From: Astropecten irregularis
Lineage: Eukaryota > Echinodermata > Asteroidea > Paxillosida > Astropectinidae
Length of the DNA: 64,000 nucleotides
Reading direction: 5' to 3'
Assembly (NCBI GenBank): GCA_963971285.1
Contig: OZ020244.1
Coordinates: 3,286,001 to 3,350,000 of the forward strand
Shown one piece after another: positions 4,579 through 62,120 of the stretch. Both the position numbers and the translations under genes were made by a program. The notes beneath the pieces are model-generated. The model ran no database searches. It had not been told where the DNA came from and saw nothing but the letters and a program-made list of their open reading frames with translations. How positions within the stretch are numbered: the first letter of the stretch is position 1; every line of letters begins with the position of its first letter.

Positions 4579-5481
4579 AATAGCATCAAACGGTTGTCCA
4601 CTGGCTAGTGACTACGGCTTCGAATGACAAGCCAGCCTATGAAAGATAGCGTCATCCATACCGAAGTGTGCTTATTCTATATAGCCTTAGCCTTATCGCA
4701 AGAACGTGACGTCCTTGCAGAAACTTCTGCAAAAAAGCTAGCAAAACCGAAATGTAATTATGTTGCTTTCTGCTCATCATTATTTCAAAGTGGTACATTT
4801 AACACGCCCAACCACCCACAAACACGCAACGTGGAACAACACCAAGCGCCAGTCGCCTGACCAGACACCATATCATTCCACAGTAAGGTGTCCAGTTACC
4901 AGACTAAAACGTGCCTGGACAAACTGGCGCAATTATATTTTGCCCCCACGAAACCGTCAGGACATTATTGACAGCAGTTGCCATTATAAAGGCTTGGCAA
5001 ACAGGATCGGTCGAGTTTGTCGATTCAAACTGTTTGGAAGAGTCACGCAGGCGATAGATTCCGAGGACAAATCGCTTATGATTTATCCAAATTCAAGGTT
5101 CTTTTACAAATTGGCAGAGAAAAACAAATAGCAAATACAGGTCTACGATATCATTGTTGACTCGAATACGCGTAATGGCCACGGAATGTGTTTTTACTTG
5201 GTATTGGTGAGAGTAACTGTACACAGTATACAGAAGGAGATTGATATACATGTTTAATTCATGCAGTCTAGTTGACTAACGATCGCTAGGCTTTTTGACC
5301 ACGGCTATTTAATTCTGGGTGTTTAACGAACCCTGATAAACGTGGCTTTCATCATAAAAGCCAGTTGGAATGAATTCATAAAACGGGAGAAGAGAAATAT
5401 TGAGACCTTGATCAATACACGGCAATTGCCACATGCATGAATGTTACGGCATTTGGCTACAGTGTAGTTTAAAAAGGTTGA
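4579..5481. other. Unassigned stretch
   Basis: Two overlapping plus-strand open frames occur between 4624 and 5131. Neither resembles a known domain nor shows convincing splice sites. Nothing else is recognised. Confidence 0.4.
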
Positions 5482-6203
5482 AGTAAGAGTGAGAGGGCCT
5501 GACGTTTCGATCCTAGCAGAATCTTTCTCAAAGGCTAAATGGTCTGAGTTAGGAGGGCCTGATGTTTCAATCCTAGCAGGATCTTTCTCAAAGGCTATTA
5601 ATGGTCAGAGTTAGGAGGGCCTGACGTTTCCATCCTAGCAGAATCTTTCTCAAAGGCTAAATGATCAAAGTTAGGAGGGTCTGATGTTTCCATCCGAGCA
5701 GGATCTTTCTCAAAGGCTAAATGGTCAAAGTTAGGAGGGCCTGATGTTTCCATCCGAGCAGGATCTTTCTCAAAGGCTAAATGGTCAGAGTTAGGAGGGC
5801 CTGACGTTTCGATCCGAGCAGGATCTTTCTCAAAAGCTAAATGGTCAGAGTTAGGAGGGTCTGATGTTTCCATCCGAGCAGGATCTTTCTCAAAGGCTAA
5901 ATGGTCAGAGTTAGGAGGGCCTGATGTTTCAATCCTAGCAGGATCTTTCTCAAAGGCTAAATGGTCAGAGTTAGGAGGGCCTGATGTTTCAATCCTAGCA
6001 GGATCTTTCTCAAAGGCTAAATGGTCAGAGTTAGGAGGGCCTGATGTTTCAATCCTAGCAGGATCTTTCTCAAAGGCTAAATGGTCAGAGTTAGGAGGGC
6101 CTGACGTTTCGATCCTAGCAGGATCTTTCTCAAAGGCTAAATGGTCAGAGTTAGGAGGGCCTGACCTTTCGACCCTACCAGGATCTTTCTCAAAGGCTAA
6201 ATG
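5482..6203 (-). repeat. Tandem array 1 of ~60-bp hammerhead-like unit (12 copies)
   Basis: Twelve units repeat with a 60-bp period; one is 62 bp. Read on the minus strand, the unit has a helix I strand GCCU, a box UUGAGAA, one A, a helix II hairpin GAUCCU-GCU-AGGAUC, the box GAAAC, then GUC and the helix I partner AGGC. This order matches a type I hammerhead ribozyme except that core positions 3 and 8 are U and A instead of C and G. The best-preserved unit spans 6099-6137. The open frame across this array is a by-product of 60 being a multiple of three. The repeat is certain; a ribozyme function is inferred. Confidence 0.9.
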
Positions 6204-6253
6204 ATACACATACACTATTCATTATTAATGTCTTAATTAGCTCGAAAACAGTC

Positions 6254-6296
6254 AACAGTCGCCTGATGGTTGTTCAACCATCATCAGATGACTGTT
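6254..6296. repeat. Short imperfect hairpin
   Basis: AACAGTC and GACTGTT flank an inner palindrome around TGGTTG...CAACCA, just beyond the end of tandem array 1. Its minus strand contains CTGATGA but no GAAA box, so it is not a hammerhead. Confidence 0.5.
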
Positions 6297-6853
6297 AAAT
6301 TCACCAGTTGATCAAATGGGCTTTGACAGTGGAAATGCAGGATACCAGTCTAGCGTCAAGTAGAGGCCATTCAAATTTACTACCAAGTCAAGTGTATATT
6401 TAATTAAATTAACTTACAATATACTAATTGATTATTTTGCAATACAGAAAACAAAAAGCATGAACGCGGCTGTATCATTTCATCAAGCAATAAATAATGC
6501 ACGATAGAGGATTATAATTTTTTTAACCAAACACCTTCTTTGATGCGTGCTATACGCCGAATCGCTCAATTTTCCAAACATAATTTGGTTTTTTTCGCGC
6601 GGAAAATCCATTTCCATTAAAGCCGCGTAATTGAATTAACACTGAATTATTTCATTGAGGAAGTAATTCACACGCTACTGTAATGTACACAAAAGTCTTT
6701 TGTTCGACCGCGTTGTTAAGACGGGCATGTGATGATATGCATTGTATGTGCATTAAAGTTTCAAGTACATGTATTACAGTAGTGGCGTACCAATTTATTG
6801 ATCGTGATTTAAATATCGACACCAACGGGAATCCCCCGCATTATTTTAACAGA

Positions 6854-7225
6854 TTAAAGGTACTATCATACTTTGGTATCATACCGAAACAGAAATTGTC
6901 ACAGATTTACCTATAACTTAGAGGGTATAAAGATGGGGATGGTAGAAACATACTGTTAAAATTGTTCTGTCTGAAATGCTGTATTTATCCAGAAAAGAGT
7001 AAAACCAATGACCACTGAAAAACAATTTTGATCTTTCGAAGATCAAAAGTAACGGTGAAAAGACTTAAGAAATTCTGTGGAGGTCTTTCACTATTTCCTC
7101 ACAAAGTGGGCACCGTATGGGACTGAAATGTTCACAGATGACTGTTACTGTATCTTCCTTGATATTTTTGCCCAGGAATCTGCATTTTTTTTTAATAAAA
7201 ACCGAAAGTATGATACTACCTTTAA
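6854..7225 (+). mobile_element. Family A TTAA element
   Basis: TTAA occurs at both borders, with left end AGGTACTATCATACTTTGGT and right end ATGATACTACC. The internal family A block is complete. A family N fragment begins directly at its right border. Confidence 0.85.
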
Positions 7226-7322
7226 AACATGACGACTTTTACCACTCTAAAAGTCGACTTGGCGAGATAAATGATGTGGTTATCTGGAAAAGTGGGATGG
7301 CATTTTTGAAGCACCGTATAAT
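7226..7322 (+). mobile_element. Family N fragment
   Basis: The sequence matches the right arm of the element at 4151-4578 (AAGTCGACTTGGCGAGATAA, then GTGGTTATCTGG and GGGATGGCA). The remaining part is missing. Confidence 0.6.
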
Positions 7323-7660
7323 ACAGAGTGCATGGTTGGTAAAATCTCAACAGTGATTGTTTCTCTTCCAAGAATAAATATAATCCTTCACCTTCAAACC
7401 AACACAAAGACGATCCAAAGCGTCTAATGAAATACCCACGAATGAATATAAAAGAGACAATGTCAAGGACTACTGCTATGCATTGTCATTATACATCATG
7501 CAAAGCTTAAGAACGTACAGAGAAGATGTATGCACTTGTATGGGTTTTTACTCGACCGCTCGACGACCCCGTACCGAGGCCACGCTGATGATGCGCTTGA
7601 CCGGACTAAACTCAAGCACTGAACAGAGCAATCCCAACAGTTTCATTGAAGTCAACGTGG

Positions 7661-8025
7661 TTAAAGGTAGTATCATACTTTGGTAAGAAACCAAAACAGA
7701 AATGTTCACAGATTTACGTATAACTTACAGGGTATGAAGATGGTGGTGGTAGAAACATACCATGAAAATGTTTCCGCCAGAATTGATGTATTTATCCAGA
7801 AATTAGTAAAACAACGACCGAAAATCTTTTTGATCTTTTAAATGATCAAAAATAAAAGAGAAAAGACTTCAGAAATACTGTGGCCGTTTTTCACTGTTTT
7901 CTCAAAAAGTGGGCACCGCATGGGACTGAAATTTTCACAGATGACTGTTACTGTATCTTCCTTGATATTTTTGGCCATGAATCTGTATTTCTTTGATAAA
8001 AACCAAAGTATGATACTACCTTTAA
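7661..8025 (+). mobile_element. Family A TTAA element, near-consensus copy
   Basis: The perfect 20-bp inverted end AGGTAGTATCATACTTTGGT and its complement are each bordered by TTAA. This is one of the best copies for deriving a consensus. The open frames on both strands across it are shadows that recur in other copies. Confidence 0.9.
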
Positions 8026-9135
8026 AGGGTCTCTGCAATAGGAATATTATGACTTGAACATGTGCAAAAAAAGCAACTGTTTTATGTGCCCAGTGATTTT
8101 ACCCACTTTCTCACACTGTTTCAGGATTAACAACAGGTTTTTTGGTTTGAATGATAATTAGAATTTCCATATTCATGAGCAAAACTGTGATGTCATCGGG
8201 GTAATTGATTTGTGCACAAAAAGTTGGGGTTGTTCTATAGGTTTTCTGACAGACCCTTTTCTCCTCAATTGGTTTTATTGTGCTGAATATGTTCCTTTCA
8301 CTCAACTGGTGGTGTAAAAAAAATTTTTACCAACGATTTCTGTGGGTCATGTTTGCCTCTTCATTTGTTTATGTTTTTCCATTATATTTTTGCTGTTGGT
8401 TCCCCACATGAGCATGCATGAAAATCCCTCATTTTGCAAAGCCATTCAAATGAAAACCAGATGCAAGTTTGAAACCAAAATAAGACTTGCCATTCATTTT
8501 GTCAGTATATTCTCTGTATGAAGGCAATAAAATAACCTGACTGAAAAAAGCACCGCAGGAACCCTAAGGAAAGTAATGTAGCAGCACTCAAACAGTACAA
8601 CCAAAGGGACATATTGGAAAAGGTCTACGATTGATAAGCATGTACAAAACCAATGGAGCTGCTGCCAAAAAGTTATAGTAAGGGGCCTTTCCCATGCAGG
8701 GCTTCAGTGCATCAAAAGTCCTACGATTGATAGTAGTTACGAAGCCGAGTTTGGTGAAATCGACTCAGGATTGTAGGCACACATCTTGTGTGAGTTAGCA
8801 GACTGCACAGTGCATTCGGCAATGATACCTCACAACATAATACTGAGTGTATGATGTAGAACGGCGATTGTAAAGACCATGATTAAAATCGTAACAGAAA
8901 GGTGGTGGACCCGTAGAACGCAGTTTGTACGTTGCACTAGTTTCTCTGTATTTTTCCAGCCTCAATAAGTTACTTGCAGCTGCCCACACACTTCCTAGAT
9001 GATATCTCTTAGGTCATGCAACGAGATACCATCTCCACAATGCAGTTCAGTGCAGTTCACTTCTAAAGTGAACGATCCTATATAGCATGATATTACTTGG
9101 TCAATATCGTCTGTGAATATTGTTGGATAGGTAAA
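8026..9135. other. Unassigned stretch with one repeat fragment
   Basis: Apart from a family D remnant at about 8690-8769 (CCTACGATTGATAGTAGTTA followed by GTTTGGTGAAATCGAC), I recognise nothing here. Confidence 0.4.
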
Positions 9136-9317
9136 AAGGCCTTTTCACACTCGAGTTTTTCTCATGCTTGAAAATTTTCTCAAGGGTTTACAAGGGGCGT
9201 CGGTCACTTTCAAGCATTGCTGTCTTTTCACACGATGACACTTTCGTATGATTTCTCAAGCATGAGGAAAACTTGAGAGCCTTGTGAGTTTTTTTTTGCA
9301 TCGTGTGAAAAGGCCTT
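9136..9317. mobile_element. Family H palindromic element
   Basis: The ends AAGGCCTTTTCACAC and GTGTGAAAAGGCCTT are inverted repeats. The inner arms share CTCATGCTTGA / TCAAGCATGAG. It is about 180 bp, non-coding and present as a single copy in this window. Confidence 0.7.
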
Positions 9318-9517
9318 AAGCCTATACACGAGGACAGGTTGTTATGTACTAATATTAATAATTGATGGTAATTTAGGCATTTATATGGCGTTCTTACACG
9401 CAAAAAGGTATCACAACGATTTACACTATTATTATCCCTGGTCATCGGGCCCATTTACATTCCTGAAACAATTTCAGCTCCCTGGGGAGTATATGCCCCA
9501 GCTGCCTGCAAAGCGCG

Positions 9518-9718
9518 CAGGGCTAATCAAACACACAAAGCCATCTCTACCATTACGGGAAACCATTTACTCCTGGGTGAAGAGGAGCACTATGTGACAA
9601 AGCATCTTGCCCAAGGACGCAAGCACCATAAACCCATGGCTGGATTCGAACCCACACTCTGTAGATTGACCACAGGATCTTGAGTACGACACGCCAGACC
9701 ACTAGGCCACAGCACTCC
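9518..9718 (-). mobile_element. tRNA-derived SINE, group b
   Basis: On the minus strand the head starts near 9718 with an A-box-like TGGCCTAGTGGTCTGG and has a B box GGTTCGAATCC about 50 nt later. The sequence continues into a non-tRNA body. The stems do not pair well enough for a functional tRNA. A second copy is at 15428. Confidence 0.7.
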
Positions 9719-10448
9719 CGCAGTAGCCATGGGTGCGTAATTGAGTATATGATTTGAATAACGCCTATTGCACTATTGCCTTCATAGGCTTATCCATCCT
9801 GAGATGTATGTTATAGAAAGAGACTGACCTCCCTGATACGCCCACACACTGAACGAACCCCTACAGCTATCTGATACTGCATCTCCAATGGTTAGTATAG
9901 AAGAGGACACCAGCCTATCCTTAATGTCATTTGTACACAATTCATCTTCTTCCAATATAAAACGCTAATACGGTATTATTAGACAGTTCAGCGCGTATAC
10001 TAGCACAGGATTCAACTTTCTACAACGACCCTGAGTTATGATGATTGTAGCGGACTAAATGCCTGGAGCAACGGGATGTCCACGGTTGAATTCCACAGCC
10101 CCAGGCCGCTTTGACCATTCATACAAGAAAAGACACGGCTGAACCGGCCAATTGTCACGGAATTGACATCGGAAATTCAATCAAGGAGCGAGGGGCGACC
10201 GTTTGGTCGTTTAACCCAGGGATCGGCTCGCCAAGAAATGCCAATTGCCAAGCCCAAGCAAAGTTAATCGTATCTATATAGTGTGTATTAAGATACAGAC
10301 ATTGCTTGACTGGTTAAGAGTGCATACTGACTCGAACGAGGGTCATGGACATTTTTTAAAACACCAAACTGCAAATGGAGCCGTCAATTGTATCCATACT
10401 CCTTATACATGTACACAAAATTCGATGCTAAAATCTAAGAATCATTGA

Positions 10449-10902
10449 TGAGGTAGGAGGGTCTGATGTTTGGATCCTAGCAGGATCTTTCTCAAAGGCT
10501 AAATGGTCAGAGTTGGGAGGGCCCGACGTTTCGATCCTAGCAGGATCTTTCTCAAAGGCTAAATGGTCAGAGTTAGGAGGGCCTGACGTTTCGATCCTAG
10601 CAGGATCTTTCTCAAAGGCTAAAATAATGGTCAAAGGTAGGAGGGCCTGACGTTTCGATCCTAGCAGGATCTTTCTCAAAGGCTAAATGGTCAGAGTTAA
10701 TAGGAGGGCCTGACGTTTCGATCCTAGCAGGATCTTTCTCAAAGGCTAAATGGTCAAAGGTAGGAGGGCCTGACGTTTCGATCCTAGCAGGATCTTTCTC
10801 AAAGGCTAAATGGTCAGAGTTAGGAGGGCCTGACGTTTCAATCCTAGCATGATATTTCTCAAAGGCTAAATGGTCAGAGGTAGGAGGGCCTGACGTTTCA
10901 AA
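10449..10902 (-). repeat. Tandem array 2 of hammerhead-like unit (7 full copies plus a partial)
   Basis: This is the same unit and strand as array 1. Indels of 3-4 bp occur in two units (near 10621 and 10697). They break the apparent reading frame but fall in the linker, not in the helix I, box or helix II segments. Most units retain GAAACGUC and the TTTCTCAA box (plus-strand view). The first unit has CAAAC instead of GAAAC. Confidence 0.9.
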
Positions 10903-11662
10903 AAGAATTATTACTCAGCCATCCATGACCGTGTAAGAATAAAAAACATATCATTGTAAAGAGGATATATCTGACTTTAACGTGACACTTCTCACTTTGG
11001 TGTAAAGCTAACTCAATCTTCACAATATTGAGATAAATCTTGTTTAGGTTTTTTTGACACGCACTTTATAAAACAGCGTCTGAGATAATTATTCGAGTCG
11101 AGCTGAAACTTGAATCACAATGATACTTACATGGATGCTTGAGAGTAACTAAATGAAAATAAACTCAATAGGTTGGGCTTACAATTATGTACATGATTTC
11201 AAAAAAGGGTTTTAATCTCAAAAGTCAAGGAGATGTTTAAATATAAAGTGATACTTGGGATGAGTAAAGATATGCCGATATACCATGGAGCGGAGAAGGA
11301 ATTTCTGCTCAGTATATTGGCTGAAATTACAGACTAACAAGATAGACTAGTCCCAAAATTCACAGGAAAATGTCGACCATCCATATCATGTGGGTATTCA
11401 TATAGACATAATGTGTATATAACGATGACTTGGTGCGTTCACGTGCGGCTTTGTGAATATGATAATCAATGCCTATTATGAAATTAATATAATAAATAGC
11501 CCTTTGAATCAGCTAAGCGCTTTGTATTCCTCGCAGATGCTGTGTGGATTTATTCTGAAAACATTGCCAGGTAATAGCTCCGCAGGTTCAGTGTACGATA
11601 TGCACAGACACTTCCACACGTACGCACCTGACTCAACTAATAAACATTTCTTGCACAAACCA

Positions 11663-12118: not shown

Positions 12119-12822
12119 TGGGTTGATTTTACGAAGCCCTACGATCGATCGTAACTCCGGTTACGAAGGATAACCCATCTTAGGGGATTATTCCACGTGC
12201 AGGGCTGCAATGCATCATAAGTCCTACGATTGATAGTAAGTTACGATGAGTTTGATGAAATCGACCCCTGGAGTCGATTTCACGAAACCTTACAATCGTG
12301 CGTAACTCCAGTTACGAAGGATAACCCATCGTATCCTAAATAGGGCTGCGATGCATCATAAGCCCTACGAGGCTGATAGTAAGTTACGATGAGTTATAAA
12401 AGATAACCCATCGTACCCTAAGTAGGGCTGCAATGCATCATGATCTCTACGACTGATAGTAGGCCTAAGCTACGATGAGCCTTACGAAGGATATTATAAT
12501 GTGTCGTGTCCTAAGTAGGGCTGCGATGCATCATAATTGATAGTACGTTACGATGTGTTACGAAGGATAACCCATCGTTTCCTATGTAAGGCTGCAATGC
12601 ATCACAAGAACTACGAGGCTGATAGTAAGTTACGATGAGTTATAAAAGATAACCCATCGTACCCTAAGTAGGGCTGCAATGCATCATGATCTCTACGACT
12701 GATAGTAGGCCTAAGCTACGATGAGCCTTACGAAGGGTATTATAATGTGTCGTGTCCTAAGTAGGGCTGCGATGCATCATAATTGATAGTAAGTTACGAT
12801 GAGTTTGGTGAAATCGACCCTT
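12119..12822. mobile_element. Multimerised family D element
   Basis: The block opens with a family D end (GGTTGATTTTACGAAGCCC) and closes with GAAATCGACCC at 12822. A first complete D unit ends at 12267. Beyond it, the segment starting at 12369 is repeated almost exactly from 12615, a tandem duplication of 246 bp. Six copies of AGGGCTGC[AG]ATGCATCA-type sequence mark the internal sub-units. Confidence 0.8.
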
Positions 12823-16476: not shown

Positions 16477-16845
16477 TTAAAGGTAGTATCATACTTTGGT
16501 AAGAAACCCAAACAGAAATGTTCACAGATTTACGTATAACTTACATGGTATGAAGATGGTGGTGGTAGAAACATACCGTTACAATTTTACCGCCTGGAAT
16601 GGTGTATTTATCCAGAAATTAGTCAAACAACGACCGAAAATCTTTTTTATAAAATTATTTTAAAAGATCAAATAAAAAGAGAAAAGACAAACGAAATACC
16701 GTGGCGGTTTTTCACTGTTTTCTCAGAAAGTGGGCAACGTATGGGACTGAAATTTTCACAGATGACTGTTACTGTATCTGTCTTGATAGTTTTGCCCATA
16801 TTCTGTATTTCTTTGATAAAAACCAAAGTATGATACTACCTTTAA
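16477..16845 (+). mobile_element. Family A TTAA element, near-consensus copy
   Basis: Perfect terminal AGGTAGTATCATACTTTGGT and complement, with TTAA on both sides. The central palindrome is slightly expanded. Confidence 0.9.
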
Positions 16846-18234
16846 ATTAAATAATAGTATATGGCATATAAAAGGGATTTTGCGAGTATTTATGAAATGG
16901 AACACTGTAGTTTTTATCATAATAACTTTCGCTTTTTGTGGACATTTACTTCTTGAATATTAAATGATTTTGGTGGGGAGAAAGATAATAATTATGCAAA
17001 TTAGGCTTGCCCTTCACCGACTTGGATGAGCACTGTGTACTCAGTGCTTGTGAGTGCACGTGAAAAAAGTCACGCACTGGCTCAGGTGGGATTTGAACCC
17101 ACCTTTTTACTTCATGAACTGACCAAAGGGGCCGAAAAGGCTTAAACAAAGCGATCAGGAAAACATTAGGCCACATATTTCAACTGGTTTTTTTTAACTA
17201 GACATTTTTTTTTTTTTTGGGGGGGGGAGCTCAAATTATGTTTTCTACAGCTTGCAACGAAACAGACTGTATATACATTATTCAGGGGATTTGAGCTTTT
17301 TATCACGTGTCTGGACATGCATGGGCTAGAATTCACTCATGTATTGCAAGATGCTGAGCGAATGTTAGTGACAGCCAAATCTTCCGTCTAATGTTGCTGG
17401 ATCTGGGCCTGTCATCGACACACGCCATGTACTGACCCGTACTCTAGTACACGACTTCCGGTCCCAGCGACACACGACTTACAGAGACCGTTTATACAGT
17501 CAAGGGCATTTTATTACAATGTGGACAAATTATGTGTGCTGTCATGTCAGGAAAAACACATGTTCCCGTCTACATATAAATAAGATGTTCTTTTTACATT
17601 TCAGCTTTTACAGAGAAAGGGTGGGGGACATAATGTGCCATTCTCTTGAATCTTTCTTAGGTGGGAATTTAATTCGCAAATTGTCCCTCATCGTAAACAT
17701 GCTTATAGGGTAAATGAGATATGAACATTATGTGAACTTGTATATTAAAATAAAGTCTTTTTCCTCTGATAACCGTTTGAATCTTAACAGATTTTTTGTA
17801 TTTACACGGACCGCTTATATTATCATCGTAAGTATTTCTGCTTAGCGCATTTGCTACCGATGTGCAACTTTAACTATATACTGGAATTGGAGCAGGTCAA
17901 TATATTTTGTCGGTAAAGAAGTTCTTGTCGCACATATGTACAGAAGTCGTTAAATATATACACGCAATTTTTTAAATATTCTCTAATTTGCGCAAAGCTA
18001 CTTTGTTCCGATTTAGAGTGCTCTTGAAATTCCATTTATATTTAAAGGCAAGTCATCATTAAAGGGTGCATTTTGTGAATAAATTATAAAAGTGCATCAT
18101 GCGGACTTTTGAATGGACCCTTCGCCAAATAGTTTATAATGATTTAACATACAATGTGGGTTTAGTAATATGCGAGCCATAGAGAAACATATAGGGTGTG
18201 ACGTCAGCACTATATGTAACGTGAATTTAGCACA
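16846..18234. other. Mostly unassigned, with a tRNA-like SINE head
   Basis: At about 17040-17178 the minus strand has TGGCCTAATG (A-box-like) and GGTTCAAATCCC (B box) separated by a long insertion. This is likely a degenerate SINE. A homopolymer T/G tract lies at 17205-17227. Nothing else is recognised. Confidence 0.45.
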
Positions 18235-20519: not shown

Positions 20520-20600
20520 AAGTCATTGAAGGTGAACAAATAACAATTGACCGAAGCGGGATTCAAACCAGCGACCAGGGAGTACCAGGGAGTGCTGTGC
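20520..20600 (-). mobile_element. tRNA-derived SINE, group a, remnant
   Basis: AGTCATTGAAGGTGAACAAA followed by AGCGGGATTCAAACCAGCGA matches the body and B box of the group a SINE. The A-box half is lost. Confidence 0.55.
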
Positions 20601-22220: not shown

Positions 22221-22579
22221 TTAAAGGTACAGTACAGGATTGGTAGCTTAGATAAACAGAAATGTAAACAGGTTTACGTATAACTTTCAGGGTATGAAGA
22301 TGGTGCTAGTAGAATCATGGCGTTAAAATATTTCCGTCTGAAATGGTGTATTTATCCAGAAATTAGTCAAACAAAGACCGAACTAGTTTTGATCTCGGGG
22401 TAAGATCAAACCATTTTTTATATTTTATAAGAATTGAATCGCTTTTTGCTACTTTATCATGACTCAGATGTCCGATTGAGTTCAAATATTCACAGGTTTA
22501 CATTTCATGTATTATGCTGGATCGGACAAAGTTTGAGTACTGTTCTGTGACCTTAAACAATCATGTATTATACCTTTAA
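22221..22579 (+). mobile_element. Family B TTAA element
   Basis: Left end AGGTACAGTACAGGATTGGT and right end CCAATCATGTATTATACCT, with TTAA at both borders. It is non-coding. Confidence 0.85.
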
Positions 22580-22841: not shown

Positions 22842-22961
22842 AGTCTCTTGATGACTAGAGAAAGCTAGTCGAAACGTTGAGACCTATCCAGAAGTGCGAC
22901 GAAAATAATAAGTGCGAAAGTACGAACGAATATTACATGGTGTTTCCGCAAACCGATCCAC
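22842..22961 (+). mobile_element. Hammerhead-bearing element fragment, decayed ribozyme
   Basis: The first 43 nt read AGTCTC, TTGATGA, CTAG-loop-CTAG, TCGAAACGTT, GAGACCT. Relative to the copy at 37633, three nucleotides are missing and the first box is TTGATGA, so helix II now overlaps the core. Downstream, TGGTGTTTCCGCAAACCGAT is the complement of the leader motif seen beside the other copies. Confidence 0.6.
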
Positions 22962-23038
22962 ATATGTCTTATCGTTGTAAATATGCGACTTTTCCTCAAC
23001 CCGAATTTTGTTAACCTTTCTAAGTGTTCATTGTAGTT

Positions 23039-23361
23039 TTAAAGGTATAATCCATGATTGGTAAAGGTCACAGAACAGCACTCACACTGTCTGATCCGAT
23101 ATGTGCATGTGTGAAAATTTGAGCTCAATCGGCCATCTGAGTCACGAGAAAATATAAAAAACCCGACTCATATTTTCTTGTAAACATAAAGAATGGGTTT
23201 GATCTTACCCCGAGATCAAAACTGTTTTTGGTCTTTGTTTGACTTATTTCTGGATAAAATATTTTAACGGTATGTTTCTACCAGCACCATCTTCATATCC
23301 TGAAAGTTATACGTAAACATTTCTGTTAGGGTGTGTTACCAATCCTGTACTGTACCTTTAA
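23039..23361 (-). mobile_element. Family B TTAA element
   Basis: It begins TTAA plus AGGTATAATCCATGATTGGT and ends CCAATCCTGTACTGTACCT plus TTAA. It is inverted relative to the copy at 22221. Confidence 0.85.
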
Positions 23362-24333
23362 CAGGTGTGTTTTGGTCTGGGGTGCATGCTATAGGCCTAC
23401 ATCGGGGTGTTCATGTTTAGACGGTTGCTAGGCGGAAGGATAATTGTCATTAAGGATGATTATGAGATGTAGTTCCGGGGATGTGAAGGTGCGCCACCGT
23501 CATGCTCGTCTATAATCCTAACACCATGCATTCCCGTGTTATCACCAGACAAACCCCGTAATAGAAAAAGCACACATACTTTTTATTATCTGTCCATTAG
23601 CATCGCGCGGTGCTTTTAACAGTCCGCGCCTATTTGCACAACGCGGGAGAAGTGACGCTACACGCGAACTGCGATACTGCTTGACGATTCGCGCCGAATA
23701 CGATCGCCATCGGCAAGATTCAATAAAGACAACTCCTTCAAAGATGTGGAATATTGAACTGACCGGAGCCCTTGAAACACGCGAATGTCAGGGTTATCAA
23801 AGCCTACCAATATTATCACTTTTGATTAAAAAGGCAGAACGGCGCATAAGAAACTATATCGAGTGCACGCGTGATTTCCGACCCAATTTAAACTGTAATT
23901 GGATCCCAACTTGATGAAAATGTTCCCAAGTCACCCGCGATGTCAATCGTAGGTTCCAACGCACGGACCGTCCCATACTAGCCTAGCGTCCTGATTAAGT
24001 TATCATTTCACACGTGCCAATCGCTTATTTCGCAAGTGCAGAAATACCACTGTTTGATTGCCACGGACGTATTATGCAGTTATGGTATGACAGTATCTGT
24101 CAGTGGGTTGTCGTGTGGCTGTTTCTACTGCCGATTGCGTGTACATTGAACGTGTCTGAACGATCTCACTGACAGACATGGTGAGAGAAACAAGATCAAA
24201 TTCACATCACAACCTGCTTCAATGTGTATGTTCAACCGACCACGATTATGTTGTCTGAATATCTGGCTCGGTGGACGTGCAATCATGTTCGGTCTGAATG
24301 AAGTCACGATGACATGGGAGTGTCTTTTTGCTA

Positions 24334-25150: not shown

Positions 25151-25651
25151 TTGGTGTTCTAAGTATTTAAGGTCGACGAATATACCAGAATCTGACTTGA
25201 TGCTCGATATCTTACGCTAACACAATCTCACGGTGTGATATTAAGTCATATTGTAAATTTTGATCAATAGAAAACAAGAATGTGCTGCTTTGAGGCGAAT
25301 GTGACCAAATCTGTCTCGAGCGAGCTATGTACGTTGCCACATTTGCAATATTAAACGGCAAAGAAACGTGCGACGATTTCCCGAGCCGTGCTGGGAGGGT
25401 TTTTTAGCCATTAGGGGATGCGGCCGTGGAGATATCGAAGATTAAAATCAGACAGGCCACAAATCGGTTTTACCCCCTCCTGGGACTACAAGAATTGATG
25501 TGAAATTTCATCCCAGGAAGAGAAAAATACTTATGGTGCTAAAAATAATATTTGATCGTCTTAGTATATACTAAGACTTGGCAACAAGCATGGTTACCGA
25601 TTATAATTAGTTATAAGACAGATTTGAGGCTTTGCATGGTGATAATTGGTA

Positions 25652-25764
25652 TGTGGATCGGTTTGCGGTAACACCATGTGATTTTAGCCGGTTCTATTTT
25701 CGGCGCACTTCTCGTTAGCTCTCAACATTTCGACTAGCTAGCTCTAGTCATCATCAGGAGATTA
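25652..25764 (-). mobile_element. Hammerhead-bearing element fragment
   Basis: On the minus strand (25764-25719), AATCTC, CTGATGA, T, GACTAG-loop-CTAGTC, GAAATGTT and GAGAGC follow the hammerhead order. GAAAT replaces GAAAC and helix I is shortened to UCUC/GAGA. The leader GATCGGTTTGCGGTAACACC lies at the left border. A SINE begins about 20 bp to the right. Confidence 0.6.
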
Positions 25765-27960: not shown

Positions 27961-28485
27961 GATAGGGTCCACAATCTGAACACGTGAAAGTTCAAATACT
28001 ACGAACGCTTAAGGAGAGAGCCTGGATATTACAATGCAGTATACACAATTATCACACCATATGAAAGTGTAGACGCACGAACACAAAATGCTGTGTAGTT
28101 TTATGCAAAGTGTCCAATGCATTCACAAAGCACATTAGAACTTATCAATCCTTCGCGTATTGACAGTTAACCATGCATACTTAATTGAGACAGAATAGAT
28201 GAGATACGTAGGGCGGGACAAGAACCCACGACCTTGAAACTACAGCCCAGGCGCTCGACCTTCAGTCTGGTGGTGTTCGAATTGCCATTCACCTTTCTGA
28301 CAATTTGGGACATCACCAACAAAGATGAACATATGAGCGTTGGAATGACATCATAAACCGAAGGACACATTATTGGAATCACACTTCAACAATTACCCTA
28401 TTCTCCCATTCATCCAAAAATGACCTTCGTGTTCACTATGATAAGACTTGAAGCTATGCATGGTGGAAGTACTAATGTAAGGTAA

Positions 28486-28710
28486 GTTTGTGGTGACACC
28501 ATGTAATCTCTTCTGTGAGAGTGTGTCATTCTGAGAAGAACCGGTGGTATTATCTCGACGTTCCGAACAGTGTGCTCTGTTCGTCTTCATTCTCCCGAGG
28601 ACGAAAAGAGCACAATGTTCGGAACGTCGAGTTAGTACCACCGGTTCTACTCAGAACCACACACTCTCATAGAAGAGATAACATGATGTCCCTGCAAACC
28701 TACCTTACTT
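28486..28710. repeat. Inverted-repeat element related to the hammerhead-bearing family
   Basis: A leader GTTTGTGGTGACACCATGTA and its diverged complement bound arms that share GAGAGTGTGT, ACCGGTGGTA and CTCGACGTTCCGAACA. The leader resembles the GTTTGCGG[AT]AACACCATG motif beside the hammerhead copies at 25652 and 37556. No intact ribozyme core is seen. Confidence 0.6.
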
Positions 28711-29377
28711 TGTGTTCACTGTGACTAATGTACGTAGACCTACACATTGCAGACTAATTGTAACAATTGAGCATTATAACACAAACTACGACACGATTAA
28801 GACGTCTTGAAGTTTACTATAAAGCATTTTGAGTGGAAAAAAAAATCTGTAAAAATTGAGGCCTAGCAAACTCTTTTCAGACAACCCTGATTCGCCTGTA
28901 TGGAAACCTCTAGTCACAAATATACACTTCAGGGTGCTCTAAAAGTGTAATTATCCACATAAATCATTTACAAACCCTCGAAACAACTCTACAGCCATGA
29001 GCATTTATTTTTCATTAAATGGCCTACTGAAAGTCACAAATAGACACTTCTGGGTGATTAAAAGAGTAATTATCCACACATAATATTTACAAGCCCTCAA
29101 AACGACTTTACAATCATGAGTATTTCCATGAAAAAGCCGACATACTTTCCGTTTAGTGAGGCAAATGGGAAAAAAAAACCAAAATGAGGATGGGGCACTG
29201 GAAAACACCAATAAAAACATCAATATCATTATACCCATTTTCAGGTCCTTTGTGGGGAACTCCCTGGCTGCACATAACGGGAGTTAGTCGGCACTTGACA
29301 GACAACCATTTCTGTAGATACTAGGATGCTTCGACACTGAAATATTGGTACTTCGCCAATCTACCCAAAAGTACCTG

Positions 29378-31544: not shown

Positions 31545-31843
31545 AATGCTTTGATAAAGATCATGCTAGGATTGAAACGCCAGGCCCTCCTAACTCTGAC
31601 CATTTAGCCTTTGAGAAAGATCCTGCTAGGATCGAAACGTCAGGCCCTCCTATTACTCAGACCATTTAGCCTTTGAGAAAGATCCTGCTAGGATTGAAAC
31701 GCCAGGCCCTCCTAACTTAAACCATTTAGCCTTTGAGAAAGATCCTGCTGGGATGGAAACGTCAGACCCTCCTAACTCATACCATTTAGCCTTTGAGAAA
31801 GATCCTGCTAGGACCGAAACGCGTCAGGCACTCCTAACTCCCA
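31545..31843 (+). repeat. Tandem array 3 of hammerhead-like unit (5 copies, plus strand)
   Basis: Five units lie in the opposite orientation to arrays 1 and 2. The first unit has the box UUGAUAA followed by A and helix II GAUCAU-GCU-AGGAUU. Later units have UUGAGAA. Helix III sequences vary (GAAACGCC, GAAACGUC, and GAAACGCGUC in the last). The right edge continues into the dispersed-element sequence AATTTCAGGCCATTATTTTT. Confidence 0.85.
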
Positions 31844-32584
31844 AGGATTTTATAAATTTCAGGCCATTATTTTTGGTTGGGAAGCAGGTTTTGTTTCATG
31901 TAGAGATATTAAAACGAGTCTTTGTTTCGTGACGGCAATTGTGTAATAGCTCAAACCACAGGTTGGTGAAGATGATAGCAATAACATCCGAGTATATGAA
32001 ACGTGCAAAGCAACGGATGTTTTTGTTTCATAGTCGACACTCGTTATACTCACACAGCATCCTGCGCTGCTTACAAGTGCAACAGACAAACCGATTACCA
32101 ACAGGTTGAACTCAAGACAAACAGGAAATGTGACAAGTTCAAGTTCTCTTGTGCAAAGTTATCAAGTTCCTTAACCCAATAGGGACAATGTGATGAAATG
32201 TCATATGATTCGCTTGCCTGGCGCTGTGAATGTGCAGGTATGCCATTTAAATTGAGCACAGGTAGTGGAGGACATGACGCAGGGAGACCAGTGCGCGTGC
32301 GCAGGTTCCCCAGGCGTCTTTCCTGAACGCGATGAGCTAGTTTTGCCTTTTAGAATCTGACATTCAAGCCTGGCTGAGTCCCATCATGTTACATGAATAC
32401 ACATTCATAGCAGGCGAATGCCAGCCTGTTGTACATTCATAAGATGTCAATAACCTTAACAAACCTCTTATCCATGCAAAATGCGACACGAAAGAATCCG
32501 ACCTTACAGAATAAACCTGTAAACAGTCTAAGGCAATACGATTTGTACAAAAGTGCAGAATCTATACCATGATCGGACTTTGTT

Positions 32585-34660: not shown

Positions 34661-34735
34661 AAAATATAAATTTCAGGTCATGTTTTGGCTGATGAGCAGT
34701 TTGCAGCAGGTTATTACTTATATTGGCATAGTTTA
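34661..34735 (+). mobile_element. Family E tail fragment
   Basis: AATTTCAGGTCATG, then TTTTGGCTGATGAGCAGTTT and GCAGCAGG match the conserved tail found next to dispersed hammerhead-like copies at 35222, 40798, 53632, 60431 and 62005. Confidence 0.6.
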
Positions 34736-35105: not shown

Positions 35106-35221
35106 AATTCCCCGATTTTGCCCAGCACTACCCTATATTCAATTTACTGAATAAGTTGAAATCATTACTGACATCAGTGGGTTAAACACCAAGCATGAGT
35201 GTTTCTTATTTAGCGAAGGAT

Positions 35222-35440
35222 AGAATAAAGATCCTGCTATGATGGAAACGCGCCAGGCCCTCCAAACTCCAAGCATTTTTATGAATTTCAGGTCATTATT
35301 TTGGCTAATGACCAGCTTGCAGCAGTTTTTACTTGTACGCGTTTCGATCATAGCAGGATGTTTAATTTTGTTTATCGATACAGATCCTGCTAGGATCGAA
35401 ACGCGCCAGGCCCTCCTAACTCCAAGCACTTTGGAGTTCT
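35222..35440 (+). mobile_element. Dispersed family E element with two hammerhead-like cores
   Basis: A first core at about 35228-35265 (GATCCTGCTATGATGGAAAC, then GCGCCAGGCCCTCC) is followed by the conserved tail. A reversed core end comes next (CGCGTTTCGATCATAGCAGG), then a second core at 35380-35420 (CGATACAGATCCTGCTAGGA, TCGAAACGCGCC). Confidence 0.65.
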
Positions 35441-37530: not shown

Positions 37531-37555
37531 CTTAAAAACAATGCATGTGGATTCA

Positions 37556-37678
37556 TGTCAATCGGTTTGCGGAAACACCATGGAAGAATCGCTCGTACTT
37601 TCGCACTTCTATTTCGTTCGCACTTCTCGTAAGGTCTCAACGTTTCGACTAGCCTGCTCTAGTCATCATCAGGAGACC
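37556..37678 (-). mobile_element. Hammerhead-bearing element fragment, best copy
   Basis: The left part has ATGTCAATCGGTTTGCGGAA and ACACCATGG, the leader common to the family. The right part (37633-37678) holds the ribozyme motif described separately. It fits a non-autonomous or truncated Penelope-like terminal sequence, a class known to carry hammerheads, but no reverse transcriptase is visible. Confidence 0.6.
37633..37678 (-). ncRNA. Type I hammerhead ribozyme motif, apparently complete
   Basis: Reading down the minus strand from 37678: helix I strand GGUCUC, core CUGAUGA, one extra U, helix II GACUAG / CUAGUC closing a 6-nt loop, core GAAAC, GUU before the expected cleavage site, then helix I strand GAGACC. 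Helices I and II are 6 bp each and fully complementary. Helix III is only A-U and C-G with no loop. That is too small to form alone, so activity may need a dimer. The motif is seen directly; activity is inferred. Confidence 0.65.
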
Positions 37679-40790: not shown

Positions 40791-40797
40791 TTTTTAA

Positions 40798-41082
40798 ATG
40801 CTTAGAGTAAGGAGGGCCCGACGTTTCAATCCTAGCACGATCTTTCTCAAAGGCTAAATGGTCAGAGTTAGGAGGGCCAAACAATTCGATCCCAGCAGGA
40901 TCTTTCCTCAAGGGTTAAATGGTCAGAGTTAGGGGGCCTGACGTTTCAATCCTAGCAGGATCGTTATCTTTACCTTTAGCCTTCGGTAAAGATCTAGCGT
41001 CAGGCCCTCCTAACTCCAAGCATTCGTTCAGGTCATTATTTTGGCTGACGGAGCAGTTTGCAGCAGTTTATTACTTGTATTG
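40798..41082 (-). mobile_element. Family E element with decayed hammerhead-like units and tail
   Basis: Three reversed core units (GACGTTTCAATCCTAGCACG, CAATTCGATCCCAGCAGG, GACGTTTCAATCCTAGCAGG) at about 60-bp spacing are followed by a forward AAGATCTAGCGTCAGGCCCT and the conserved tail GAGCAGTTTGCAGCAGTTTA. It links the tandem and dispersed forms. Confidence 0.7.
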
Positions 41083-46749: not shown

Positions 46750-46828
46750 CTCTTAACTCCAAGCATTTCATTATTTTAAGGTCATAATTTTGACTGATGA
46801 GCAGTTTGCAGCAGTTTTATGACTGGTA
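46750..46828 (+). mobile_element. Family E tail fragment
   Basis: CTCTTAACTCCAAGCATTTC and TGATGAGCAGTTTGCAGCAG match the tail of dispersed family E elements. No core remains. Confidence 0.6.
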
Positions 46829-48112: not shown

Positions 48113-48704
<592 letters not shown>

Positions 48705-49735: not shown

Positions 49736-50252
49736 TGCGTACTAATTGGTTTTGTAATCATAATTTAAAATGCAATATAACACTATATGCTAAAGCAAGA
49801 TTTATCTTGAATACAGATCAACCAACATCGTAAGACATCGCGTATCATTTTTCACGACGAACAGCATGTTGTTCCTTGTGTGTGATACATCAATAACGTG
49901 TTTATTGATGCCTTAAAATCTACGCAAACCGCCGAGGGAATGAAATAAATGAAGACGAAATCAGAGTCGATTCTGCCTCCCAAGACCATGCAAACACGGG
50001 CACGTATTGAGACCGCTAAGATATCGGTACATGGAGAGCTATTGTCCATACTTCCTCAATGTTTCGCAAATTGGAGGGAAGCCGCGCTATCGTGAGTGCT
50101 TCCGTGGGACGTGCAGATTATTCCAAACGCACATCTCAAAAAGGCCTACTTCCGAATGGAATATGTCAGAAATAAGAGGTTTGCGTGCCAACAGCATTTG
50201 GGTCTTCTTTCAGGCAACGCAGGCATGAGTAGGATGTGGAGGGACTATTGTG

Positions 50253-50420
50253 TAAGACTTGCGGAGACGCCATGTTATACAGTCTTTTTGGAAGGTGTGT
50301 GGTCCTGAGAATGACCGGTGAGAGGAAGTATCTCGACGTTTCGACCAGTGTGATCTGACTGTCCTCTCTTTCCTGAGGACGGCATGAACACACTGGTCGA
50401 AACGTTGGCATGCTTGACGT
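50253..50420. repeat. Inverted-repeat element related to 28486
   Basis: The leader ACTTGCGGAGACGCCATGTT is followed by arms sharing AACGTTTCGACCAGTGTG and complement. One strand contains CCTGAGGACGG...GGTCGAAACGTTGG, which recalls a hammerhead but lacks a matching helix I. Confidence 0.55.
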
Positions 50421-53086: not shown

Positions 53087-53631
53087 TCAAGGTAGCAGAC
53101 AACTTAAAGCACTGAAAGATTATACAGACCAACCACCAACCAAACAGAACAACCAACTAACGGACGGATCAATGTGCCCGTGTCTGGCATTAGAATATTA
53201 TTTCGGCTTGAACCTTGCCCAGAGATCGAGCCGATGTTGTTTCCCTTTGCGAGAGAGAGAGAGAGTCGCGACCGTGATTGCTGGCCTATTCACCCAGGAG
53301 CAATCACTAACCTTTCCGTGGAAAAATTGGTAACAGCGAGAAAAAAGGTCGATTACGGGCAAGAGCGAAGCAGCAGCGGCAACTGCCTGTGGAACCGACC
53401 GGCTCCAGGCTCCCTAAGGCTGCTTCGGTTTCATCTGCATTTGGGAAATTGATTTATACCACGACTAAAACAAACACATTTCTGGAACTAGCACAGTGTT
53501 TAGGATCTAATATAAATATCGAGATGTATAACTGTCCGGATCTGTGTAAATTTTGAGGTTCAAATTAATTGAAAGCGTTTTGTATTGGGGTTCCTATATG
53601 CCTAAATTGCCAAATCTCAATATTGTGATAC

Positions 53632-53796
53632 AAATAATAAACTGCTGCAAACTGCTCATCGGCCAAAATAATGACCTAAAATCTATAAAATGCCTGGCGA
53701 TCCTAGCAGGATGGATCTTTATCGAAGGCTAAATGTCTTCGATAAAGATCGTGCGAGGATCGAAACGCGTCAGGCCTTCCAAACTCCAAGCACTTA
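53632..53796 (-). mobile_element. Dispersed family E element, inverted pair of cores
   Basis: The reversed tail (AAACTGCTGCAAACTGCTCA) is followed by a reversed partial core (GATCCTAGCAGGAT), then GATCTTTATCGAAG and its complement, then a forward core (TTCGATAAAGATCGTGCGAG, GATCGAAACGCGTCAGGCC). The forward and reverse cores form a hairpin. Confidence 0.65.
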
Positions 53797-56284
53797 ATAT
53801 TTTAATTGAGATAATGGTGCCTCAAATTAAAACTACAGTGGCTGACGAGCATTAAGGATCATTCAGGAGATCAAAAATGGGAATAATCAGAGTTGAAAAT
53901 TTTAGGATCGTCCATGATGTTTCTTTTCGGGCACAACTGCAAACTACACCGATAACATGAGGTAGAAATGTTTCTCCAAAACAGTAATTCGAAATTGATT
54001 TAATGAAAAATAAATGATGCTGACATGAATACAGGGTTTCGCCAAATAAAAAAGGGAAAGAGTTCTTCATTACAGGATTTCTAAGAAAGTCTGTAATGGA
54101 CATGAACAATCTGATAGTATTGATATCACTGTGTACATAGGTCCACAGTCATGTATACACGCTAGCTCTATTGAAAATATTACGTCTTGGGTTCCAACTT
54201 GGTCAAATACTGCATTCCTCTAAGTGCTCAGCAACGACGTGTCTCATTGCTACATCTCCGTACTGAAAGACACCCAGCCATGTTCCCCCTGACATTTCCC
54301 ACCTTCCACGGTAAAAGAACCTCACGGGCAAACACCCATCGTCCACGGTATACATCTCACTACACGAACAAGCGTCAATTTGTCACCTAGACCACGAAGG
54401 AAGGGAGTCGGTTTACGACATGCTGGCATCAAGCAACATCCAAGCAAGAACGGCATGAATCGTTCCAAGCCTGGCCTATGCAAAGCAACGGACGGACACA
54501 CCGCAGGGTATAGTATGTGGAGGCGGTATTAATGACATCTTATTCAATGTGATGTTTGAGGACCGTAACCCAAGCTGCCGTCGAAAGGTAGGGTAAAAGG
54601 GTGGCAAAATGAGACCAAGCCTTACTCCGATCAAGACAGGTGTATTATCATTCAATCGATCAATAGAAAACAGTCAATATTCCTGAATCAACTTCAGGAA
54701 GGCCTTCTTTGCTTTTTCATGGATAATATTTCACATTGCCTATCACGCAAGGCCGCAACAATTTAGCTCATCTACAATATTCGACATAATGGGTTCATAG
54801 TTTCATATGATAACGTTCATCCACGGAAGTAAATAAACAATTTAATCGACAGAATCGTAAAATGTTGAAGGTTTTAAAAATAAAAGAACCGTAATTCTTG
54901 TTTAGTCATGTGAACCATGAAAATAATGTCTACTGTGAATGCAGGTGGACTGGCGGGAAATGAACATGGCCTTTAGACCTATATAAATCAACCTATTACC
55001 TTTATATGGCGTCACTTAGTCTGGGAGCGCATTGTGCTTTCCTTCAATTTTTTTTATTGAAACAAAATTAATTTTTTTTTATAAAAAATCGCAATGAATA
55101 AGTCGTCTATCTATGATTCAAATGCATCATTCATTCTACTTGACGGTCCTATGGAATACGAATGTTTAGTGTTGGTTGTACATTTTATACAATTCACAAC
55201 AAAATCAACGAAAAATGCTTGCATCTTCACAAATGACTAAACACGAAACCGAGTAGATCAAAATCAGCTCTTCTTAATAATTAAGAAGCTATTTTTGCTC
55301 TACGAACAGACATGAAACAGTTAGAGGTTTAGTGTTATGGTCAGCATTTTGCAAATTAGAATATTGACACAAATGCTGAAAACCGCTTTGATCAACGACG
55401 TATAATATGTTAATGTCGACAGCTGTTTACTGTCGACTCCGTATGCATAATTATGATTAATTTAACTGGCAAACAATTGTCCAGACAGTTTGTTCTTTAC
55501 TGGGTCTTTTTAGAATCAAACATTTATTCAGGAAACACATAAAGGCTTTCTGAGCTATGCATCTCTGGATATGGCAAATTTGATGTACAGTTGCATTTTG
55601 AATGATACACTGAGCAAGCTAATAATAGGTCGAGAGCTTAAGGTCAGTTTATTATTGTATCTGAATGAAAGGCAACACCTGAGAACAGCCCATGAGGAAC
55701 CTCCTACAATTACCACAAGTGCCACTTGGCTAGTTAGCCTAGTTCGCCGTGACGTTATAACAGCCATTTTAATTTACCATCGCGAGAGATTGACAAGATA
55801 TGTCAAATCTGCCATATATTGTCTCTAGTCGCTTCGACTTTGATCACAGAGTCATCCTAATAGTTCAAGTTCGTCACAAATCAATTAAATCGGTGCACAG
55901 ACGGCACAAAGTCCTCACCACGGTATATGAATTACCGTGCAGATGTAGACTCCGTGGGGAGCTGAAATCATGAAATATGACGTGCGAGCCCGTATGCCCT
56001 GTGCCGTTAAAATGACATTTTTAATCTGAGCTATTATTCTATATGGCGCGGAGCTCGGAAGTATGATAGTATGCGACATTGGTAAACATGTGCTGTGTAG
56101 CCCATAGAGACAGGCGTTGATTAATTAATACTGGTAAGAACAATGGATTGGCTGCAGACTTGGTAAATACCCTACGTATCATGCGTCCAACCAGTACTGG
56201 CTCCATACATATACAATGTACGAAGTACGATGAAAGCTCATTAACAATTATGTTTCCCCCCAGATAGATATTTTGTCTAAACAC
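53797..56284. other. Unassigned stretch
   Basis: No gene or repeat family member was recognised in about 2.5 kb. Short open frames on both strands look random. Confidence 0.35.
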
Positions 56285-60057: not shown

Positions 60058-60430
60058 ACAGGAGTTTGAGGACTTAGGATGGGTGTTGCTAACACTACAT
60101 TAAGCCAATACTCCTGGGGCGTGGTCTCGGCCCGTTTGGTATCCCCATTACAAAACTCAAGACGGTCATTGAAACCCTTGAACGTTAGAAAAGACAGCTT
60201 CAAGATGTTTATTGGTTTTTCAGTTCTTGGGGATTTGACTTGAATTATTGAAAGTGCTTTTTGATTATGAAATGTACGCAAGTCAAAATCAAAATGAGGT
60301 ATCAAGAGCCAAAACAAAGCAAAACACTCAATAAACACACAAACAAGCAACACCTGACGAGTGGAGCTAAAGAACAAGTTGGTTCGTTGACAGCTGACAA
60401 TCAATTCAAAGTAAACCATCACTGTCATTA

Positions 60431-60538
60431 CAAGTAATAAACTGCTGCAAACTGCTCATCAACCAAAATAATGACCTGATATTTTCGATCATAGGATTCT
60501 GCTAGGATCAAAACGCGTCAGGCCCTCCTAACTTAAAA
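60431..60538 (+). mobile_element. Dispersed family E element
   Basis: The reversed tail (AAACTGCTGCAAACTGCTCA) is joined to a core GATTCTGCTAGGATCAAAAC followed by GCGTCAGGCCCTCC. The first core box is too decayed to read. Confidence 0.6.
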
Positions 60539-61673: not shown

Positions 61674-62004
61674 CGACCTCCTTTTACAGTATCGATACTC
61701 GCGCTAAATACCCCTGGTTTTTTCATCAATGACAGAATCGATATAAAAACAGGATACAAGCGCATTACCTAGGGGCTTAAAATCTGCCACAGAAATAGCT
61801 GAACGATACCCTGGCATTTCGGGAAACGATAACAATTTCATCAGTTACCTCAAATGTCAGCAATTCTCTATCGGGTTTTGCTGTTTTCAATCCCTTTCCT
61901 TTCTAATCTATACTGTAAGATGCCCGCAATCCTAGGTATAGGGAGGTTAGGTTGGTACAGTCTGGTACTGCGTTTTCGACAAAATTTATATTAAAAACTA
62001 CAAA

Positions 62005-62120
62005 TTAACTGCTGCAAACTGCTCGTCAGCCAATATGATGACCTGAATCCAATGCTTGGAGTTAGGAGGGCCTGACGCGTTTCGATCATTTATCGAAGTC
62101 TTTTATCGGTATTTATCGAA
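62005..62120 (-). mobile_element. Dispersed family E element with collapsed helix II
   Basis: The reversed tail (TAACTGCTGCAAACTGCTCG) and TTGGAGTTAGGAGGGCCTGA are followed by CGCGTTTCGATCATTTATCG. On the minus strand this reads UUCGAUAAAUGAUCGAAACG, so the helix II hairpin has been deleted. Confidence 0.6.

Follow-up and report, generated by a model that had tools for sequence, protein, structure and literature searches.

Hammerhead-like 60-bp repeats in Astropecten irregularis: a possible inner part of a Penelope-type terminal repeat

A tandem array in Astropecten irregularis (contig OZ020244.1, assembly GCA_963971285.1) has a 60-bp unit that, read on the minus strand, resembles a hammerhead ribozyme with U3 and A8 in its core. 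The question it raises is whether so short a unit is a self-cleaving system in its own right, as the initial annotation supposed in describing a minimal retrozyme or satellite, or a fragment of something longer. It was addressed in the 64,000-nt stretch surrounding the array, referred to here as the window. Features of the family to which the unit belongs (S) and of two other families (H and K) are listed in Table 1.

Table 1. Coordinates of S, H and K features, numbered from the first letter of the window
Feature	Position	Strand	Description
Array A1 (S)	5486..6203	-	12 hammerhead-like 60-bp units
A1 best unit	6099..6137	-	helix I 6137-6134/6102-6099; box UUGAGAA 6133-6127; extra A 6126; helix II 6125-6120/6116-6111; GAAAC 6110-6106; GUC 6105-6103
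A1 best unit, proposed cleavage	6103/6102	-	
Array A2 (S)	10428..10901	-	7 full units and a partial first unit starting at GAAAC
Array A3 (S)	31549..31888	+	5 units (31549-31840), the last with the dispersed form GAAACGCGTC
Array A4 (S)	40795..41079	-	3 direct units, the first degenerate, and one inverted
A4 inverted unit	40975-41079	+	full tail; head to head with direct units
S element B1	53629..53799	.	inverted tail and unit 53629-53735 abutting direct unit 53737-53799
S copies B2	35218..35432	.	B2a unit and tail 35218-35337 (+); inverted part-unit 35338-35364
S copy B2b	35371-35432		direct unit
S element B3	60429..60533	.	inverted tail 60429-60482, then part direct unit 60495-60533
S copy B4	61999..62100	-	unit and tail; box TCGATAA; helix II mostly lost
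S copy, tail only	34665..34722	+	5'-truncated
S copy, with tail	46750..46828	+	5'-truncated; starts CTCTTAACTCC
H element 1	25651..25761	-	perfect core 25761-25720; GAAAUGUU
H element 2	37555..37676	-	perfect core 37676-37635; extra nt before helix II; GAAACGUU; AC-rich 3' end
H element 3	22844..22963	+	box with 3-nt deletion
K element 1	28474..28711	.	238-nt palindrome, 83% identity
K element 1 motifs	28553-28589 (-), 28591-28632 (+)		hammerhead-like, outward-facing
K element 2	50236..50410	.	related inverted arm and direct motif 50369-50410 (CUGAGGA)

The 60-bp unit and its core

Tandem Repeats Finder called a 60-bp array at 5486-6203 (11.9 copies, 94% matches), bearing out the one annotated at 5482-6203, and three further arrays of the same unit at 10450-10899, 31549-31840, and 40795-40962. 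The best unit of the first array, at 6137-6099 on the minus strand, reads GCCT-TTGAGAA-A-GATCCT-GCT-AGGATC-GAAAC-GTC-AGGC. The hammerhead order annotated for this strand is present and the cleavage position was correctly placed on this unit, but one A had been missed: the parts listed earlier add up to 38 nt and the stretch to 39, so there is an extra A between box position 9 and helix II. The statement that every unit is hammerhead-like was too strong. In A1, the cleavage triplet is GUC in 5 of 12 units and AUC in 7; helix I is intact in 10 and helix II in 7 (G-U allowed), and 7 units combine both helices with the box, GAAA, and UH. Among the 27 units taken from all four arrays, with degenerate units at the edges counted in, helix I is intact in 20 and helix II in 17 (broken in 10), and A is found at 16.2 in 8. 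The consensus and 13 of the 27 units have helices I and II in the right order with a UH triplet, and the motif is complete in the same number, 13. UH itself was scored in 24 of 27 by a script that miscounted one CGCG unit. Unit 31789-31829, which has two surplus bases at this point, was scored as lacking UH; its helix II is also broken, so that the figure of 13 is unaffected.

The arrays do not have the canonical core (C3 U4 G5 A6 N7 G8 A9; G12 A13 A14 A15.1). Their consensus has the box UUGAGAA followed by the extra A, with four of the six fixed box positions matching and GAAA present. The annotated claim that only positions 3 and 8 differ is right for the box and overlooks the extra A, which is also in the core. 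In the plus hammerhead of chrysanthemum chlorotic mottle viroid, an extra A lies between A9 and helix II. An extra core A is known from this hammerhead (PMC3705267). U3/A8 is not new as a hammerhead variant. It was sound to read it as a pair-preserving change. U3/A8 was published in 2011 as a natural covariant that is active in vitro (Perreault et al., PMC3088659). In those natural variants, as in S, U3-A8 takes the place of C3-G8; the S family differs in having no clear C3-G8 copy beside it. C3 or G8 is clear in no S copy (one unit with a box insertion, 40875-40914, can be read either way), so covariation of positions 3 and 8 cannot be shown inside the family. Tolerance of U3/A8 may also be context-dependent, because in a 2023 pairwise scan of a type III hammerhead the C3G/G8C swap alone rescued activity, the remaining single and double mutants of the C3/G8 region having low activity (PMC9901934).

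The box is TTGAGAA in 24 of the 27 array units. The end unit at 31547 has TTGATAA, and the unit adjoining the A3 tail keeps GAAACGCGTC, like the dispersed copies. Six boxes outside the tandem runs are readable by eye, including that of the inverted unit beside A4; four are TCG(A/G)TAA, one is TCGATAC, and one AGAATAA. The UCG(A/G)UAA boxes of the dispersed copies have three or four core mismatches. U4C is reported to lower hammerhead activity and yet to be tolerated in a viroid (PMC3088659). The simplest path between these forms would lead from UCGAUAA to UUGAUAA by a CpG C-to-T change and from there to UUGAGAA; we infer the direction from this path, by which the U4 of the arrays looks derived.

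A strict descriptor was defined by a 4-bp helix I, a box with mismatches at no more than two of its six fixed positions, zero or one extra nt, a helix II of 5 bp or longer, and then GAAA, a pair, and UH. It found 11 loci in the window, nine within arrays and two elsewhere; 200 first-order Markov sequences of 64 kb, simulated for comparison, contained none. When 2 or 4 nt were allowed before UH, 60 simulations yielded one locus, an expectation of 0.017 per 64 kb; for the layout with any box the expectation was 0.28 (60 simulations). The any-box scan of the window also picked 40692-40652, where all six box positions are wrong. Chance is an unlikely source of the complete motif, but the bare layout, box aside, is no rarity and would not settle the matter by itself. 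All of the array units are copies of one ancestor and so amount to one independent observation.

An Rfam search of the whole window at gathering score gave no hammerhead match, only a tRNA, and the hammerhead models at E up to 10 had no match in the stretch 5000-11400. The gathering-score scan also missed the perfect-core motifs of the H family (below), so the Rfam negative counts for little. Weak matches to CRISPR-repeat models (E 3 and above) were read as chance, these sharing a hairpin followed by GAAAC. The exact pattern of the unit had no match in viral contigs, in collections mainly of prokaryotes and their viruses; four loci matching a degenerate pattern there proved to be unrelated sequence over the matched stretches. 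A text search of published papers with six short stretches of the unit gave no match, and a non-exhaustive literature search found no report of a hammerhead array with a period as short as 60 bp.

A minus-strand frame is open over most of A1. A protein-coding minisatellite was nevertheless rejected: unit lengths of 62 and 64 nt, not divisible by three, occur, and a protein search yielded no candidate. By eye, positions 6250-6300 contain an imperfect inverted repeat, AACAGTC..GACTGTT, which on the ribozyme-like strand lies some 50 bp upstream of A1.

Folding, unit variation and array growth

The minimum-energy fold of the best-unit 39-mer is the two-helix fold, at -11.5 kcal/mol, and a whole single unit takes the same fold at -12.5 kcal/mol. 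In multi-unit transcripts, the near-palindromic hairpin is predicted to favor pairing between units over the cis fold. The predicted probability of cis helix II is 0.02 in a two-unit transcript and 0.11 to 0.73 in a three-unit one; for cis helix I in the natural A1 transcript, it ranges from 0 to 0.48. A dimeric double hammerhead, in which the ACGU palindrome would serve as helix III, evaluates at -21.3 kcal/mol and is not the predicted structure. The best two-strand fold, at -30.8 kcal/mol, is an extended helix II duplex in which a box still lies opposite GAAACGUC. Judged from the sequence, weak, pair-dependent cleavage is possible.

The 27 units give 18 distinct rows, among which there are no compensatory pair changes with both sides changed; paired cells make up 88.3%, compared with 88.9% in shuffles. 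There is no sign of selection on the helix pairs. Two CpG-step positions, the closing C of helix II and the G of GAAACG, account for 22 of the 67 differences in the 39-nt core, and 17 of these 22 are C-to-T or G-to-A. Departures from the majority occur in 4% of cells in the box, 2% in GAAA, and 1% in the loop, as against about 10% in the spacer, where edge units and indels inflate the counts. The GGCCCTCC block, which is mostly outside the motif, differs in 8 of 216 cells (hand count) and is about as conserved as the box. Given this similar conservation and the inflated spacer counts, the low variation of the core was not taken to show a catalytic constraint.

The mean distance between units is 0.101 within arrays and 0.142 between them (permutation p 0.0005), and neighbors in A1 resemble each other more than they do when its units are placed in random order (p 0.0025). 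This extra similarity of neighboring units points to local duplication or conversion at the DNA level. The arrays would then have grown by local DNA duplication and conversion, not by reinsertion of 60-nt RNA circles; seeding of each array by a short RNA-derived concatemer would be compatible with the same data. A plain minisatellite without any RNA role, produced by replication slippage of a palindromic 60-bp unit, would be in keeping with the local similarity of neighbors and with the concentration of core differences at the two CpG-step positions. It leaves the dispersed single and inverted copies with one common 3' end (below) unexplained, and we regard it as extremely unlikely.

On the minimal-retrozyme reading, multimers would self-cleave into 60-nt monomers, which would circularize and be reinserted by a Penelope-type reverse transcriptase, each array being a reverse-transcribed concatemer. 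Metazoan non-LTR retrozymes are likewise tandem repeats with a type I hammerhead in each; they are described, however, with repeats of 150-450 bp, a canonical core, and loop-loop contacts (PMC7229834), whereas S has a 60-bp unit, a variant core, and no helix III and belongs to a longer, tail-bearing element. Known metazoan type I hammerhead repeats are in this same 150-450 bp range (PMC7229834), and the S arrays contain no tandem repeats of such length with a canonical type I hammerhead. The geometry and U3/A8 are compatible with activity (PMC3088659), and an isolated unit is predicted to take the two-helix fold, but position 16.2 is A in 8 of the 27 units, and helix II is disrupted in 10. In a tandem array, neighboring units would be available as pairs in cis, and hammerheads with little stem III are able to work as dimers (PMC7229834, PMC7761336); in transcripts of two or three units, however, the cis fold has a competitor in the duplex between units. 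The arrays are also locally homogenized, and three of them pass into a longer element, A3 into its tail and A1 and A4 into the first part. Altogether, a minimal retrozyme seems distinctly unlikely. The further proposal that intact U3-A8 units without stem III are active through inter-unit duplexes, giving monomers of ~60 nt that would be the smallest natural ones and reinsertable by a Penelope-type enzyme, is very unlikely.

Dispersed copies and the layout of the longer element

A sensitive self-comparison of the window located copies of the unit outside the arrays at 35.2-35.4, 53.7, 60.5, and 62.1 kb. With a composite query, the dispersed S element reads as the unit, then CCAAGCAYTT, then an optional tail of ~60 nt. 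The seven tailed copies all end in TTTATTACTTGTA or a near variant by eye, the exact form being found in A4 and B3 and changed forms in B1, B2a, B4, and the copies at 34665 and 46750. The arrays join the same element. A1 and A4 run into the first part of its 3' flank, as A2 does less clearly, and the last unit of A3 runs into a degenerate S tail (its end at 31888 was set by eye). In A4, B1, and B2b an inverted copy faces a direct one head to head, and by eye B3 is similar; both boxes of the B1 pair are TCGATAA. The tail is at one end only in A4, B1, and B3, while the B2b pair lacks one and lies against the tail of B2a. No target-site duplication was demonstrated at the seven boundary pairs compared: B1 scored highest but did no more than match the 95% level of 300 random pairs, as one pair in that many tries might do anyway, and the other six are lower. 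The 60-bp unit is the interior of a longer dispersed element whose 3' end hardly varies and whose inverted layout resembles that of Penelope, and the minimal-retrozyme annotation finds no support here.

Minimal type I hammerheads in Penelope-like elements were reportedly described by Cervera and de la Pena in 2014 and by Lunse, Weinberg and Breaker in 2017. Such hammerheads without helix III are given as typical of these elements (PMC7761336, PMC6155905). The likeness to S extends to helix I, the box, helix II, GAAA, and UH, to an essentially absent helix III, and to location in a terminal repeat and a tandem or dimer arrangement; S differs by U3/A8, the extra A, the 60-bp period, and the lack of any reverse transcriptase found in the window (PMC7761336, PMC6155905, PMC11167929). 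Within the window, two more families share the minimal type I geometry without helix III. The Penelope layout as described has adjacent inverted pseudo-LTRs (pLTRs) and palindromes at the inverted junctions, and one inverted pLTR may carry a 31-bp tail at its 3' end (PMC3846280). In an Anolis element, both target strands are reported to be cut and extended, a 30-40 bp optional tail corresponds to two reverse transcriptase start sites, and RNA with a dead hammerhead inserts in vitro all the same (PMC11167929).

S copies vary little at their 3' ends, may or may not have a tail, are in some cases truncated at the 5' end, and repeatedly occur as inverted pairs set head to head. As in Penelope pLTR inserts, inverted copies lie head to head with a tail at one 3' end only, palindromic junctions, and 5' truncation, but the arms are ~70-125 nt, compared with ~200 bp, the tail is ~60 nt, longer than the published ~31 bp (PMC3846280), and there is no ORF between the S arms. 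Of 130 open stretches of at least 75 aa, 120 were scanned against Pfam; no Penelope reverse transcriptase or GIY-YIG domain was found in these, only two weak, unrelated matches. It is therefore the layout, and no enzyme, that supports the Penelope assignment; a reverse transcriptase ORF would in any case be missing from a short non-autonomous insert.

Related families in the window and the origin of S

The strict descriptor also found perfect CUGAUGA cores at 37676-37635 and 25761-25720 on the minus strand. Both have GAAAYGUU and one extra nt between A9 and helix II. They belong to H, a family of three copies of ~110-120 bp with an AC-rich 3' end in common. A covariance model of the three H hammerheads (R1) retrieved new motifs at 50369-50410 (E 0.0012), 28553-28589 (E 0.0085), and 28591-28632 (E 0.048), all in the K elements. 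By eye, the 3' ends of K element 1 resemble those of H; the AC-rich end is found in H and K, not in S. On the six best S units R1 scored 12.4 bits (E 0.24), with chance-like places close below at 11.5 and 10.7 bits. A second model, R2, built from 27 S units, retrieved S copies and, in part, one K arm at E 6; in a search of the window with E up to 10, it found no H element. The sequence comparison alone gives no tie between S and H. Because the two models barely cross-recognize the families, descent of S is inferred from the layout.

About 50 bp upstream of the H1 hammerhead is a tRNA-like sequence, 25885-25811 on the minus strand (Rfam, 41 bits), where ARAGORN called no tRNA. It has partly similar copies at 39894-40038, 29535-29633, and 20520-20576 and is perhaps a tRNA-derived SINE head beside a minimal hammerhead.

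The window also holds other repeats. One, very dense, is an interspersed repeat of ~340-380 bp with ~79-90% identity and at least 11 copies (6853-7225, 7661-8025, 16477-16846, 24333-24675, 30596-30972, 32585-32937, 36283-36659, 42320-42691, 49401-49737, 52722-53086, 56285-56650). A second, of ~330-360 bp, has at least six (1354-1710, 22221-22579, 23039-23371, 33736-34081, 39397-39724, 42923-43285); the stretch 1353-2079, of this family, is 73% identical to its own reverse complement. At 12310-12805 there is a 246-bp tandem duplication, for which an 82-bp period was also called, with related pieces at ~25.0, 37.5, 44.2, 45.6, 59.9, and 63.2 kb. Finally, 48141-48514 consists of 63 copies of (TCAGGC)n, with several frames open on both strands.

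The inverted arms of A4, B1, and B2b could have arisen in another way, and this counts against a Penelope origin. In a foldback DNA transposon or MITE with subterminal tandem repeats, the unit would be a structural repeat belonging to inverted termini that a transposase moves, and its likeness to a hammerhead would be due to chance. Mobile elements with satellite-like repeats are known, for example oyster Helentrons (PMC7492417). The any-box layout is expected ~0.28 times per 64 kb by chance, UCGAUAA, the box of dispersed copies, departs from the core at three positions, and none of the H hammerheads is retrieved by the S model. A Penelope origin is further weakened by the S tail, ~60 nt where 30-40 bp is published, by the S 3' end, which is not AC-rich, by the E of 0.24 for R1 on S units, by the scan of open stretches that gave no Penelope reverse transcriptase or GIY-YIG domain, and, if only slightly, by the missing Rfam hammerhead match. 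The tail at one end only in A4, B1, and B3, together with 5'-truncated copies sharing a 3' end, nevertheless fits Penelope-type insertion better than a foldback transposon, and the head-to-head layout recurs in K, a family with motifs that the H hammerhead model picks up. A foldback element is on these grounds rather unlikely.

The reading preferred here, to which we give slightly better than even confidence, is that the S arrays are the tandemly multiplied, decaying inner part of a non-autonomous Penelope-type terminal repeat with a minimal hammerhead. Other families in the same window lend it support, H with its perfect core and single extra nt like that of S, and K with its palindrome and two outward motifs. 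The 60-bp unit would be the hammerhead-bearing inner part of a short, probably non-autonomous terminal repeat of this type. Its motif may descend from a Penelope-type hammerhead, and the inserts may be the work of a Penelope-like element that reverse-transcribed RNA beginning at the hammerhead region. At four places in the window the unit would then have been multiplied in tandem. With its U3/A8 and extra A, the S hammerhead would be at best a weak putative ribozyme needing two neighboring units or a protein, and it does not seem to be maintained within the arrays.

The role of the hammerhead in Penelope-like elements has been described as a mystery (PMC7761336). In this one 64-kb window of A. 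irregularis, the S, H, and K families stand side by side, with cores ranging from perfect to degraded. S suggests how a Penelope-type terminal repeat may seed a satellite of very short period. Its spread with U3/A8, and in most of the readable dispersed copies with C4 as well, would offer a natural experiment on whether such a family must be catalytic in order to spread.
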